This document shows, piece after piece, positions 1 through 34,283 of a stretch of 39,264 bases of DNA. This stretch comes from a virus. The notes beneath the pieces are model-generated. The model was not told where the DNA came from. It did not search any database and saw only the letters and a program-made list of their open reading frames with translations. Position 1 is the first letter of the stretch; each line of letters starts with the position of its first letter. Made by a program: the position numbers and the translations under genes. The DNA is taken from positions 1 to 39,264 of IMG/VR virus record IMGVR_UViG_3300024518_003035; one strand, 5' to 3'.

Positions 1-1439
1 TCCTTAAAAACAGTCTCTAAAATACCTTTAGACTCTAATTCTGGGGAGGCACTTTGAATCAGTTCCATTTTATCCGTTACCTGTAACAATCCAACGGCTG
101 TTTTTTTAGTCCCTGAGTCTGTAACAGGGTCTTTAAAAATTGAAATACCTTCCCCGTTTATTTGGCACCAAGTCGCTTTCATGGCGAACCCAAAAGTATC
201 TCTAGTAACGTGCTGATAAGTAAATGAACCTATCCCAAACACAATATTGCTTGAGGCAAACCCTTTTTCTTCCAAACCAGAAAGTATTTTTTTAGCCCTT
301 TCTAGTGTGATTGAGTCACCATAAATAATCCCTACTTTTTCATTGAGAACTTTGTAACCTTGCTCGTTTGTAGTTCCACCAAACACATCCCACAAACATT
401 CAACAGCACCCTTTTCCTCTGGGGTGGTCGGTAGAAGTTCAACAGATTCAAATGAACCCTCATCTATTTGAGTATATCCACATATAATTTCTACTGGGTC
501 GCCTGAATCAGGCCTAAATACAGTCTTACCTTCTCTGGCTAATATATCTTCTTTAAGTGTTACTGTATATTCAGTGATAACCTTCCAAAAATCCCAAGTA
601 TCAGAAACTATTGAAACAATACCAGAAGGATATAATTCAGTAATCAACCTTTTGAAAGTTGCCAATTCGTCAACCTTACCCCCTGCACACATTACGCTAT
701 GCTCTGTGGCTGGCACACTAGCCCCTATCAATTCCTTTTCACAGTCTGCACCGTAATAATCTTCTAAGAAGTCAATAGCTGGAATACTATCAGTTCCACA
801 GAAACTTGTTAGATGCCCTGCACCAGATACCATTGCATCATCTAAACCAGACATTCCCCGCAAAGAGAAATCATGGCCTTGAAACATAACGAAATCTAAA
901 GGCGTTCCAGTTTTATTGGCATAATCCACTAATAGCCTTTTGTACTCATAAGCTATTGTAGCGGAGGTAATAGGCTTCCACAATAACGTTGAAAGGATGG
1001 ATTCAAGATAGTTAGTAAGCCAAAAGAATTTATTTTCTGTATTTCTTATGGTTAATACAGGGATTCCAATAGGAACCAAGGAACCTTCTTCAAGGGCTTT
1101 AATCTCTATCGGCAAATATCCTAAATCGTGTAGTTCTTCAATATGTTTTGTCTCTATTGAATCGGGGCCTAAAGAGGTGTCCATTCTTCTTTTGTAATAT
1201 TTGATAATCTCTTCTTTTGGTTTAGAGAAAAACTCTTCATTCCATAAGTCAATAAGAAAAGCTTTAATCAATCCTTGTAGCCCAAAAAATACAACCTTAC
1301 CACTTTTGTCAGGCCAATTGAATAACCTATCAGAGCGGGGGGTAAAGTTTGAGTAGACTACTTCCGTCCCTTCTGGGTACTGTCTACGATGGTCAGCTTT
1401 ATAAAAGTCTATAGCTGTACTGGGTCTTTGTTTATACAT
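1..1439 (-). CDS. nadV: Nicotinamide phosphoribosyltransferase-like protein (NAMPT/NadV family; possible Namat), C-terminus off window
   Basis: Family enzymes join nicotinamide to PRPP to make NMN. In phage NARP1 systems the homologue (Namat) instead joins nicotinamide to ADP-ribose pyrophosphate, giving NAD+ directly. About 479 codons are visible and the stop lies beyond base 1; human NAMPT is 491 aa, so only the last few residues are missing. Family landmarks are intact: DFYKADH near residue 11, GHDFSLRGM at 188-196, CGTD at 214-217, the phosphorylated-histidine motif SVPATEHS with H247, FRPDSGDP at 308-315, and a late FGIGSFTYQ...TRDTFGFAMKAT block typical of bacterial members. The ATG at 1437-1439 follows AGGAGACAAG and lies inside the last codons of the upstream Prs-like gene (8-base overlap), so the two are probably translationally coupled. 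The family is certain; the choice of substrate is not. Confidence 0.93.
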   Translation of the reverse strand, partial: MYKQRPSTAIDFYKADHRRQYPEGTEVVYSNFTPRSDRLFNWPDKSGKVVFFGLQGLIKAFLIDLWNEEFFSKPKEEIIKYYKRRMDTSLGPDSIETKHIEELHDLGYLPIEIKALEEGSLVPIGIPVLTIRNTENKFFWLTNYLESILSTLLWKPITSATIAYEYKRLLVDYANKTGTPLDFVMFQGHDFSLRGMSGLDDAMVSGAGHLTSFCGTDSIPAIDFLEDYYGADCEKELIGASVPATEHSVMCAGGKVDELATFKRLITELYPSGIVSIVSDTWDFWKVITEYTVTLKEDILAREGKTVFRPDSGDPVEIICGYTQIDEGSFESVELLPTTPEEKGAVECLWDVFGGTTNEQGYKVLNEKVGIIYGDSITLERAKKILSGLEEKGFASSNIVFGIGSFTYQHVTRDTFGFAMKATWCQINGEGISIFKDPVTDSGTKKTAVGLLQVTDKMELIQSASPELESKGILETVFK

Positions 1440-2232
1440 CTTGTCTCCTGATTGTTGTTAGTGTTGGGTGTGTTTTTGTGCAAAATGAATCTGTAGTGTA
1501 AATATGGTCTATTAATCCCTCAAATACTTCAAAGCCTTTAGAGAATATACCATGAGTCACATACAATATAACTTTTTCATATCCTTCTTTTTTAAGCTTC
1601 TTTGCTAGTTCAATAAATGTTCTACCCCCGTCACAAATATCATCAATTATTATTACACTTCCAGTAGCAAAAGCATGGTTATTGTAAACCTCAGTATTAG
1701 TTATTTGCCCAGTTTTAACGTCCCTTTCCTTTAACGCTGTAACAAATCTTTCATTTCCAATGCTGAATATTTTTTGAACTTCATGAATTTTCTTTAATGC
1801 CCCTGCGTCTGGTGAACAAACTGAATATTCTTTATCGCCTAATATTCTTTCAAGCTCAATACAGTTACCCATCAAATCACTTTGGCTCACGTTCTCTAGG
1901 TTGTCAATCAAAGCCTCTGATATCCCTGAATGAACGTCCCAAACTATCACTTTCCTAGCTCCAATATCATTGATTATCTTAGCCATTGCCTTTAGTGAGA
2001 AGGCTTCTCCAATATCACAAACTCTATCTTGTCTGGCATAAGGTAAGTAAGGTATTTCTAGTTTATTCACTTTACCCTTTAAAGCCACACTTACCATTAT
2101 AAGCTCCATTATATTATCCGAGTTCCTTAGTGTTGCCTTTATGTTTACTTCTGTTCTTTGAGGTACTTTTACTTGTATTTCACCTCCCGAAAACTTAAAG
2201 CTTTCAATTTCCTTACCGTCAATTTCTATCAT
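1432..2232 (-). CDS. prs: Ribose-phosphate pyrophosphokinase-like protein (short phage Prs; possible ADP-ribose pyrophosphate synthetase, Adps)
   Basis: Prs transfers pyrophosphate from ATP to ribose-5-phosphate. In NARP1 the homologue Adps uses ADP-ribose as acceptor. At 266 aa this is shorter than cellular Prs (about 315 aa), as expected for phage members. Visible motifs: PYARQDR at 64-70 (ATP site), DVHS at 99-102 in place of the usual D-L-H-A, SPDAG at 140-144, a lysine near 168 in the flexible-loop position, the PRPP/ribose-5-phosphate loop IIIDDICDGGRT at 194-205, and THGIFS at 226-231. ATG at 2230-2232 is preceded by AAGGAGAAGAG. It is the first gene after a 440-base structured non-coding stretch and overlaps the NAMPT-like gene by 8 bases. 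Pairing with NAMPT implies the product supplies that enzyme's co-substrate; whether this is PRPP or ADPR-pyrophosphate is open. Confidence 0.92.
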   Translation of the reverse strand: MIEIDGKEIESFKFSGGEIQVKVPQRTEVNIKATLRNSDNIMELIMVSVALKGKVNKLEIPYLPYARQDRVCDIGEAFSLKAMAKIINDIGARKVIVWDVHSGISEALIDNLENVSQSDLMGNCIELERILGDKEYSVCSPDAGALKKIHEVQKIFSIGNERFVTALKERDVKTGQITNTEVYNNHAFATGSVIIIDDICDGGRTFIELAKKLKKEGYEKVILYVTHGIFSKGFEVFEGLIDHIYTTDSFCTKTHPTLTTIRRQDV

Positions 2233-2299
2233 CTCTTCTCCTTGTGTTGTTTGTTTCTGTTATCGCTGTTCTTAACAATACTCCGCTAGATTGTGTGCA

Positions 2300-2360
2300 A
2301 ACGTACCTCTCCTAGTAGCCAGAAAGGACAAATACCCTTACTAACTACTAGAAGAGGAAC
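2300..2360 (-). promoter_or_regulatory. 13-bp stem hairpin in the prs leader
   Basis: On the minus strand, CCUCUUCUAGUAG (2357-2345) can pair with CUACUAGGAGAGG (2318-2306): 13 pairs in a row including one U-G. The 26-base loop contains a second small AAGG/CCTT stem. The 3' arm ends about 75 bases before the prs start codon. There is no U-run after it, so it is not a classical terminator. It may be an RNA-processing, stability or regulatory element of the prs-nadV message. The stem is seen directly; its role is inferred. Confidence 0.55.
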
Positions 2361-2526
2361 ATACTACTCCGCTGAGTCGCTTAGCTGTACGCCCTTACCA
2401 CCTCTCCTCCGGACTAGTGACCTCGGGAACCTGTGGCTGGCCTATATTTATCTTTTGATTACTCAAAATTGAATACAATACTTTCGGGTCACAGCACCAT
2501 TGAATTGGCCGACCTCTGTTGTACTC
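2361..2526 (-). other. Non-coding GC-richer stretch with weak hairpins upstream of prs
   Basis: No convincing ORF on either strand. The stretch is more GC-rich than its surroundings. On the minus strand it holds a small hairpin GCTAAG-CGA-CTCAGC (2374-2388 region) and a GGTC...GACC stem enclosing CCA...TGG (2484-2513 region). A 9-base AGCGGAGTA sequence occurs twice around the 13-bp hairpin (near 2370 and 2280). No tRNA cloverleaf or recognisable sigma70 promoter was found. Together with its neighbours it gives a roughly 440-base gene-free stretch that looks like structured RNA. Confidence 0.35.
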
Positions 2527-2653
2527 TTATAATTTCGAGTGGGAATTTCTGAAAAGACCAACTCTACCGAAAAGTACCCCCCTAGAGTCTGGCGACCTGT
2601 CGGGGGATGAAGTCTTTTCAGTTACCTTTAATCTAACCCCATTCACTCTATAA
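2527..2653 (-). ncRNA. Predicted structured RNA with nested stems and a possible H-type pseudoknot
   Basis: Read on the minus strand, a series of exact complementary segments nest inside each other: TTATA (2653-2649) with TATAA (2531-2527); GAGTG (2648-2644) with CACTC (2541-2537); a 10-bp stem CTGAAAAGAC (2621-2612) with GTCTTTTCAG (2558-2549); and CCCCC (2606-2602) with GGGGG (2582-2578). ACTCT in the inner hairpin loop (2588-2584) matches AGAGT downstream (2565-2561), which would make an H-type pseudoknot. It begins 23 bases after the stop of the preceding small gene and lies in the leader of prs-nadV. It matches no riboswitch class I can recognise. Complementarity is directly visible; folding and function are inferred. 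Confidence 0.5.
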
Positions 2654-2675
2654 TGCAAGTGAAAAGATGGGTTAA

Positions 2676-33542: not shown

Positions 33543-34283
33543 CTAAGTGTATAATTGTTTCATTTCTTTAAAAATTGGTGTCTCTATAGCTGATTCCCAT
33601 TTTATTTTTCCTCGAATTTTCTTTAAAGCTTTATTTTTTGTCTGTCTTATCGCTTCATGAGTCAAGCCCATCTCGTACCCGATTTCCCGTAAATTCTTTG
33701 AACATTTGTGGCTTATGCCGTAATACTTGCATACTACATCGTATTCCCGTTCTGTTAAGAATCCTAAAACTGCTCTGGCGTATGCTTTTACGTCCTCTGG
33801 GCTTTCCGGTTCTTTTGCTTTTAACTCATCCATCATTGTCTGGCCTTCTCGGTTCTTGGCCTCTAATGAAACCTCTCCCCAGTGAACTAATTTTAGTTTT
33901 TCTACCATTTTCCCCTTCTTTTTTACCACTACTTTTTTAACCTTTGCTCTTACCAAAGAGGCATCGGATTGGTTAAATGTTGTTAAAGCCGCCTGTATTC
34001 GCCATACTGCAAAAGTAAAGAACTTATTACCCAGTGTAGGGTCAAAAGCTTTTAAGGCTTTTATCATGTGTGGTACCGAATGATTAAAGAAATCTTTATA
34101 GTTTAATTTCGGTTCTTTTACTCTAACAGCGTATTTATGAAAATATCCGTAGTTCTTCCGGTAAAGCTCGGTTAAAGCAAAATCTCTCACATGCTTTTTA
34201 TGGGAGTTTCTCTGCCATAATAACGCCAATTGCTCATTTGTTAGAGTCTCCATCATTCCGCCTTTTCTTAGAGTCATCACCAT
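33543..34283 (-). CDS. Phage-encoded sigma-70-family RNA polymerase sigma factor
   Basis: 246 aa. Region 2 is visible from about 38 to 105: YAVRVKEPKLNYKDFFNHSVPHMIKAL, then FDPTLGNKFFTFAVWRIQAAL, which parallels the F-D-P-x-x-G-x-x-F-x-T-Y-A-x-x-W-I-R core that melts and reads the -10 box. A basic linker VKKVVVKKKGK follows, then region 4 at about 175-224: FLTEREYDVVCKYYG...NLREIGYEMGLTHEAIRQTKNKALKKIR, the -35-reading HTH. Starts are ATG 34281-34283 (AAAGGTGG site) or ATG 34254-34256 (GGCGGA). Likely redirects host polymerase to late phage promoters. Confidence 0.88.
   Translation of the reverse strand: MVMTLRKGGMMETLTNEQLALLWQRNSHKKHVRDFALTELYRKNYGYFHKYAVRVKEPKLNYKDFFNHSVPHMIKALKAFDPTLGNKFFTFAVWRIQAALTTFNQSDASLVRAKVKKVVVKKKGKMVEKLKLVHWGEVSLEAKNREGQTMMDELKAKEPESPEDVKAYARAVLGFLTEREYDVVCKYYGISHKCSKNLREIGYEMGLTHEAIRQTKNKALKKIRGKIKWESAIETPIFKEMKQLYT

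Follow-up and report, generated by a model that had tools for sequence, protein, structure and literature searches.

Several phages carry gene pairs that restore NAD+ and defeat the KomABC, SPARSA or Nezha defences (PMC12774641, PMC11559045), and the gene pair described here is homologous to them. In the SPbetaL1 system, Namat (nicotinamide ADP-ribose transferase) is distinguished from Nampt by a selectivity-clamp loop (SCL, with Arg40) and a selectivity-clamp helix (SCH, with Phe392 and Tyr396 within GSx..x..xTRD), which together hold the adenine of ADPR-PP; the same enzyme also uses PRPP in vitro, giving NMN (PMC12774641). The Adps (ADP-ribose pyrophosphate synthetase) and Namat of DyoEdafos make NAD+ from ADP-ribose in vitro (PMC13232231). 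NadV-type genes are found in about 2% of small phages (<25 kb) versus 22-33% of phages >100 kb (PMC9503650).

We analysed a linear IMG/VR virus contig of 39,264 bases, here called the window. Because portal (phrog_156), terminase, coat (phrog_283), scaffold and head-closure genes are present, the virus is, as judged from these predicted genes, a P22-like podovirus. The nearest annotated terminase, that of EBPR podovirus 1, is 57% identical and no close isolate was found, while three short IMG/VR contigs reach 77% identity in the terminase. A phage-encoded sigma-70-like factor (Sigma70 region 4; phrog_351) lies at 33543-34283 on the minus strand. The left contig end cuts the Namat-like gene, whose C-terminal residues lie beyond base 1; a circular contig, which would have allowed the rest of Namat to be recovered, was rejected: the reading frame does not resume at the opposite end, and a check for end repeats found none.

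An earlier sequence-only reading had reported a Prs-like and a NAMPT-like gene overlapping by 8 bases, and both open reading frames were indeed found there, on the same strand and with an 8-nt overlap (1432-1439). The features of the pair are as follows.

1432..2232, minus strand: Adps-like gene (ADP-ribose pyrophosphate synthetase), 266 aa, ATG start, stop TAA at 1434-1432
3..1439, minus strand: Namat-like gene (nicotinamide ADP-ribose transferase), first 479 aa, ATG start, C-terminus cut by the contig end
2238..2242, minus strand: AGGAG ribosome-binding site of the Adps gene, read from the sequence
1445..1449, minus strand: AGGAG ribosome-binding site of the Namat gene, within the Adps gene, read from the sequence
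1618..1644, minus strand: Adps loop DDICDGGRT, residues 197-205, replacing Prs DDxxDTGGT (alignment)
1281..1355, minus strand: selectivity-clamp loop region YSNFTPRSDRLFNWPDKSGKVVFFG, residues 29-53, with Arg38 equivalent to SPbetaL1 Arg40 (alignment)
699..701, minus strand: His247 in ATEHSVMC, the catalytic-histidine loop, invariant in the homologue alignment
495..515, minus strand: RPDSGDP, residues 309-315, with Arg309 and Asp311 equivalent to SPbetaL1 Arg306 and Asp308 (sequence, alignment)
198..230, minus strand: selectivity-clamp helix motif GSFTYQHVTRD, residues 404-414 (Namat consensus of PMC12774641; 170-homologue alignment)

The incomplete Namat could be taken as a sign of a decaying, non-functional pair. 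We considered this extremely unlikely: the gene is cut by the contig end and not by a stop, and every catalytic residue in the sequenced part is retained, as are the two ribosome-binding sites. The pair had also been assigned to an early-type operon. This is reasonable, as it follows recombination genes (Sak4-like, Gam/Gp157-like and NinB/Orf-like) on the same strand, but it is not proved, as 443 gene-free nt lie between.

These 443 nt (2233-2675, minus strand), directly upstream of Adps, contain a very long hairpin, and RNA folding of 448 nt over the stretch gave -140.7 kcal/mol versus -112.2 kcal/mol for shuffles (z -4.96). In a coarse whole-window folding scan, several other stretches had a similar z, so that this one is not unique in that respect. 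No homologues of it were found in phages, in the fetched loci or in two exact-pattern scans of IMG/VR, and for this reason no covariation test was possible; its lone Rfam match (E=0.98) was attributed to chance. We also rejected a structured leader common to NARP1 phages, as among the folded gaps of at least 120 nt only L002 and the bacterial contig L084 had z < -3. There is a slim chance that the stretch encodes a structured phage RNA of a kind not yet described, perhaps a leader sensing NAD+ or ADP-ribose and controlling the NARP1 pair. The contig L084 (CAKLQF020000015.1) is filed as 'Acinetobacter phage MD-2021a' and looks like a bacterial chromosome, with iron transport and efflux genes; Pfam assigns its annotated NMNAT/ADP-ribose pyrophosphatase gene to the NrtR regulators.

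In profile searches, the Adps-like protein matched phrog_619 (E=4e-79) and TIGR01251 (E=4e-36) and the Namat-like protein phrog_448 (E=1e-196) and NF006629 (E=5e-171). General libraries name the first ribose-phosphate pyrophosphokinase and the second nicotinate/nicotinamide phosphoribosyltransferase, and these names cannot tell NARP1 from salvage. PADLOC matches of Adps (PsyrT, ShosT) were set aside as generic phosphoribosyltransferase-domain matches. The Prs/NAMPT-type names of the general family models would suit an ordinary salvage route, in which the Prs-like protein would make PRPP from ribose-5-phosphate, the NAMPT-like protein would make NMN, and the last step to NAD+ would fall to an NMNAT of the host or to an unseen one of the phage; the PRPP activity retained by SPbetaL1 Namat (PMC12774641) speaks for it as well. 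We nevertheless regarded this route as very unlikely, because NARP1 is favoured by the trees, by the clamp residues and by the altered loop of the Prs-like protein.

As for the loop, the AlphaFold model of the Adps-like protein (pLDDT 95) matched the PRPP-synthetase fold over its full length, and in the alignment the protein retains the ATP and catalytic residues and keeps residues conserved in both Adps and Prs (among others Phe14, Arg67, His101, Lys168, Arg170 and Asp197/198). The DTGGT loop of Prs holds the 5'-phosphate of ribose-5-phosphate; it is changed, with Thr225 lost, in the window Adps and SPbetaL1 Adps alike. Similarly, Ser81, Arg105, Gln134, Ser308 and Phe313 of E. coli Prs, which we take to lie within or bordering the allosteric ADP/phosphate site of class I Prs, correspond in the window to a gap, Gly, Ile, a gap and a gap, respectively, and are equally lost in SPbetaL1 Adps. 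The Adps-like protein therefore lacks the class I Prs signature (DDxxDTGGT plus these residues). The changed loop and the lost allosteric-site positions would fit a larger, ADP-containing substrate and a loss of ADP inhibition. Of the visible key residues, which had all been described as present, His247 and RPDSGDP stand, and the PRPP-type loop is there, but as DDICDGGRT and not in the Prs-type form.

As for the clamp, the best PDB matches of the Namat-like protein were 9w5x/9w5w (555 bits), versus 223-226 bits for vertebrate Nampt. Both clamp elements are present: the SCH motif GSFTYQHVTRD fits the Namat consensus, and the SCL stacking residue (in Namats an Arg, or the residue following Lys/Tyr) is Arg38, which aligns with Arg40 of SPbetaL1. 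Precisely, position 3 of the SCH motif is Phe (Phe406) and position 7 is His (His410) rather than Tyr or Phe. Of the residues contacting NAD+ in the SPbetaL1 crystal, 18 out of 20 are identical in the window Namat. The non-matching Ser376 (Ala362 in SPbetaL1) is the family norm, being found in 144 of 153 relatives, and the non-matching His410 (Tyr396 in SPbetaL1) is shared by DyoEdafos Namat; since the latter is active with its Adps in vitro, His at this position is compatible with activity. The Nampt-type SCH (GGxLLQ, with no aromatic residue at position 3) is absent from the window, which has Phe406; in ten Nampts without Adps (vertebrate, Xanthomonas and eight phage) the residue at this position is Gly, Ala or Lys. 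Given the PRPP activity of its SPbetaL1 counterpart, the window Namat may well have an added PRPP-dependent, NMN-forming side activity.

A peptide-pattern search for Adps relatives from the single sequence found none, and pairs were therefore collected through Namat. With a Namat query we obtained 80 IMG/VR virus loci. The flanks retrieved with them contained an Adps-like gene in 75 cases, in most of these immediately upstream of Namat. In an alignment of 170 homologues, SCH position 3 was Tyr, Phe or Trp in every inspected Adps-paired homologue, including one divergent paired phage whose motif GSYSLNMLSRD departs from the consensus and still has Tyr at this position. NMN adenylyltransferase genes adjoin the unpaired phage Nampts of 7t3, RaK2 and Milchi, with a weak match in S2L, but none was detected beside paired phage Namats among the related virus loci, which again argues against salvage. 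None was found near the window Namat on the sequenced side, the contig ending inside Namat. The combination of an aromatic SCH motif with a nearby Adps-clade gene thus separates NARP1 from Nampt salvage across the 170 homologues; this two-part test helps in correcting the annotation of the many phage genes that still go by the names Prs and NAMPT.

The Namat genes of two other viruses, L063:5977-8382 and L077:1269-3968, have in-frame interruptions of about 250-320 aa, which split catalytic motifs at an exact point (RPD^SGDP in L063, PA^TEHS in L077) and have intein-like ends (Cys start, GN end, then Ser/Thr); Pfam found no Hint domain. In phrog_12872 and the Shigella phage Ag3 protein C8XUN4 (547 aa), the N-terminal part matches Adps and the C-terminal part Namat, which suggests that a NARP1 gene has been fused or has lost part of its sequence. 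The Adps and Namat genes of some other phages are separated by additional genes (as at L025:5402-5980, L027:5392-5967 and L060:5473-5985); they include two NUMOD4-HNH homing-type endonucleases, one sub-threshold Macro-domain match and several genes with no known family, and among ten inserted ORFs there was no RyR match that would indicate a RyDEP-like gene.

Trees had been proposed as a check on the sequence-only reading, and in them both proteins fall with the characterised NARP1 enzymes and not with Prs or Nampt. Namat candidates and Nampts were the two sides of one branch, with an SH-aLRT of 100 (129 rows), again of 100 with the clamp columns masked (128 rows), and with 100/100 under a mixture model (31 rows). 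The window Namat is on the side of the characterised SPbetaL1 and DyoEdafos Namats, separate from the Nampts of vertebrates, Xanthomonas and NARP2-type phages, and inside a set of ten viral and bacterial members (99/99); SPbetaL1, DyoEdafos, ICP1 and a Felixounavirus are elsewhere on the Namat side, outside this set. The Adps-like protein was in the Adps clade, split with an SH-aLRT of 100 from nine housekeeping Prs, all of class I.

Taken together, both trees, the Namat/Nampt clamp signature and a gene pairing of the NARP1 and not the NARP2 type support the sequence-only reading, and the pair is very probably a NARP1 module, rebuilding NAD+, in a P22-like podovirus. We infer its chemistry from characterised relatives; its early expression is presumed. 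By analogy with them, Adps would use ATP to put pyrophosphate on ADP-ribose, giving ADPR-PP, and Namat would let nicotinamide replace this pyrophosphate, giving NAD+ directly. Since ADP-ribose and nicotinamide are the leftovers of NAD+-destroying defences (TIR, SIR2 and SEFIR effectors), the phage would refill NAD+ during infection, in a presumed counter-defence role.

The same chemistry could instead be a general NAD+ supply for phage replication, not directed against a specific defence. Such a supply would agree with the pair being common also in bacterial genomes, where its role is unknown (PMC12774641), but homologous pairs rescue cells in which NADase defences act (PMC12774641) and ICP1 NrsAB has a fitness cost in the absence of Nezha (PMC11559045), so that we considered it unlikely. 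Close relatives occur in at least 80 bacterial genome loci, an Adps-like gene accompanying them in 77 of the 80 listed, and a separate housekeeping Prs was found in each of ten pair-carrying bacterial genomes (10/10), a further point against salvage. Among the matches listed, bacterial Adps-Namat pairs (L099-L178) often have an NrtR-type regulator nearby. NrtR proteins sense ADP-ribose (PMC9503650), and such a neighbour would fit an ADP-ribose pathway in the bacteria themselves. An NMNAT beside Namat relatives in bacteria would speak for NMN salvage, but the genes that blastp had flagged as such were discarded, as all six tested by Pfam (6/6) were NrtR-type Nudix regulators.

Compared with known systems, the NARP1 of the Bacillus phage SPbetaL1 has the same gene order, overlap style, catalytic core, SCL Arg and SCH Phe as the window, with 55% identity in Namat and 32% in Adps; it differs in Tyr396 and Ala362 (His410 and Ser376 in the window), in a shorter SCL and in the Adps loop (DDLSSFGGT versus DDICDGGRT). 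The NARP1 of the mycobacteriophage DyoEdafos (Adps gp77, RyDEP gp78, Namat gp79; PMC13232231) shares SCH Phe and His with the window, but has the gene of the cADPR-cleaving RyDEP between the pair, whereas in the window the two genes themselves overlap, and a scan of ten neighbouring ORFs turned up no RyR domain. NrsA-NrsB of the Vibrio phage ICP1 (anti-Nezha; PMC11559045) is a homologous pair, 53-54% identical to the window in Namat and 42% in Adps; it comes from a large myovirus and belongs to another lineage on the Namat side. The NARP2-type Nampt plus NMNAT found, for example, in the phages 7t3 and RaK2 has a homologous NAMPT-like catalytic core, but is 28-30% identical, with no aromatic SCH motif, no Adps and an adjoining NMNAT. 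NARP1 being already known, the gene pair adds a clear but ordinary member, and its modest interest is in the small carrier, an uncultivated podovirus of the P22-like type (about 40 kb), which would now count among the viruses with NARP1.
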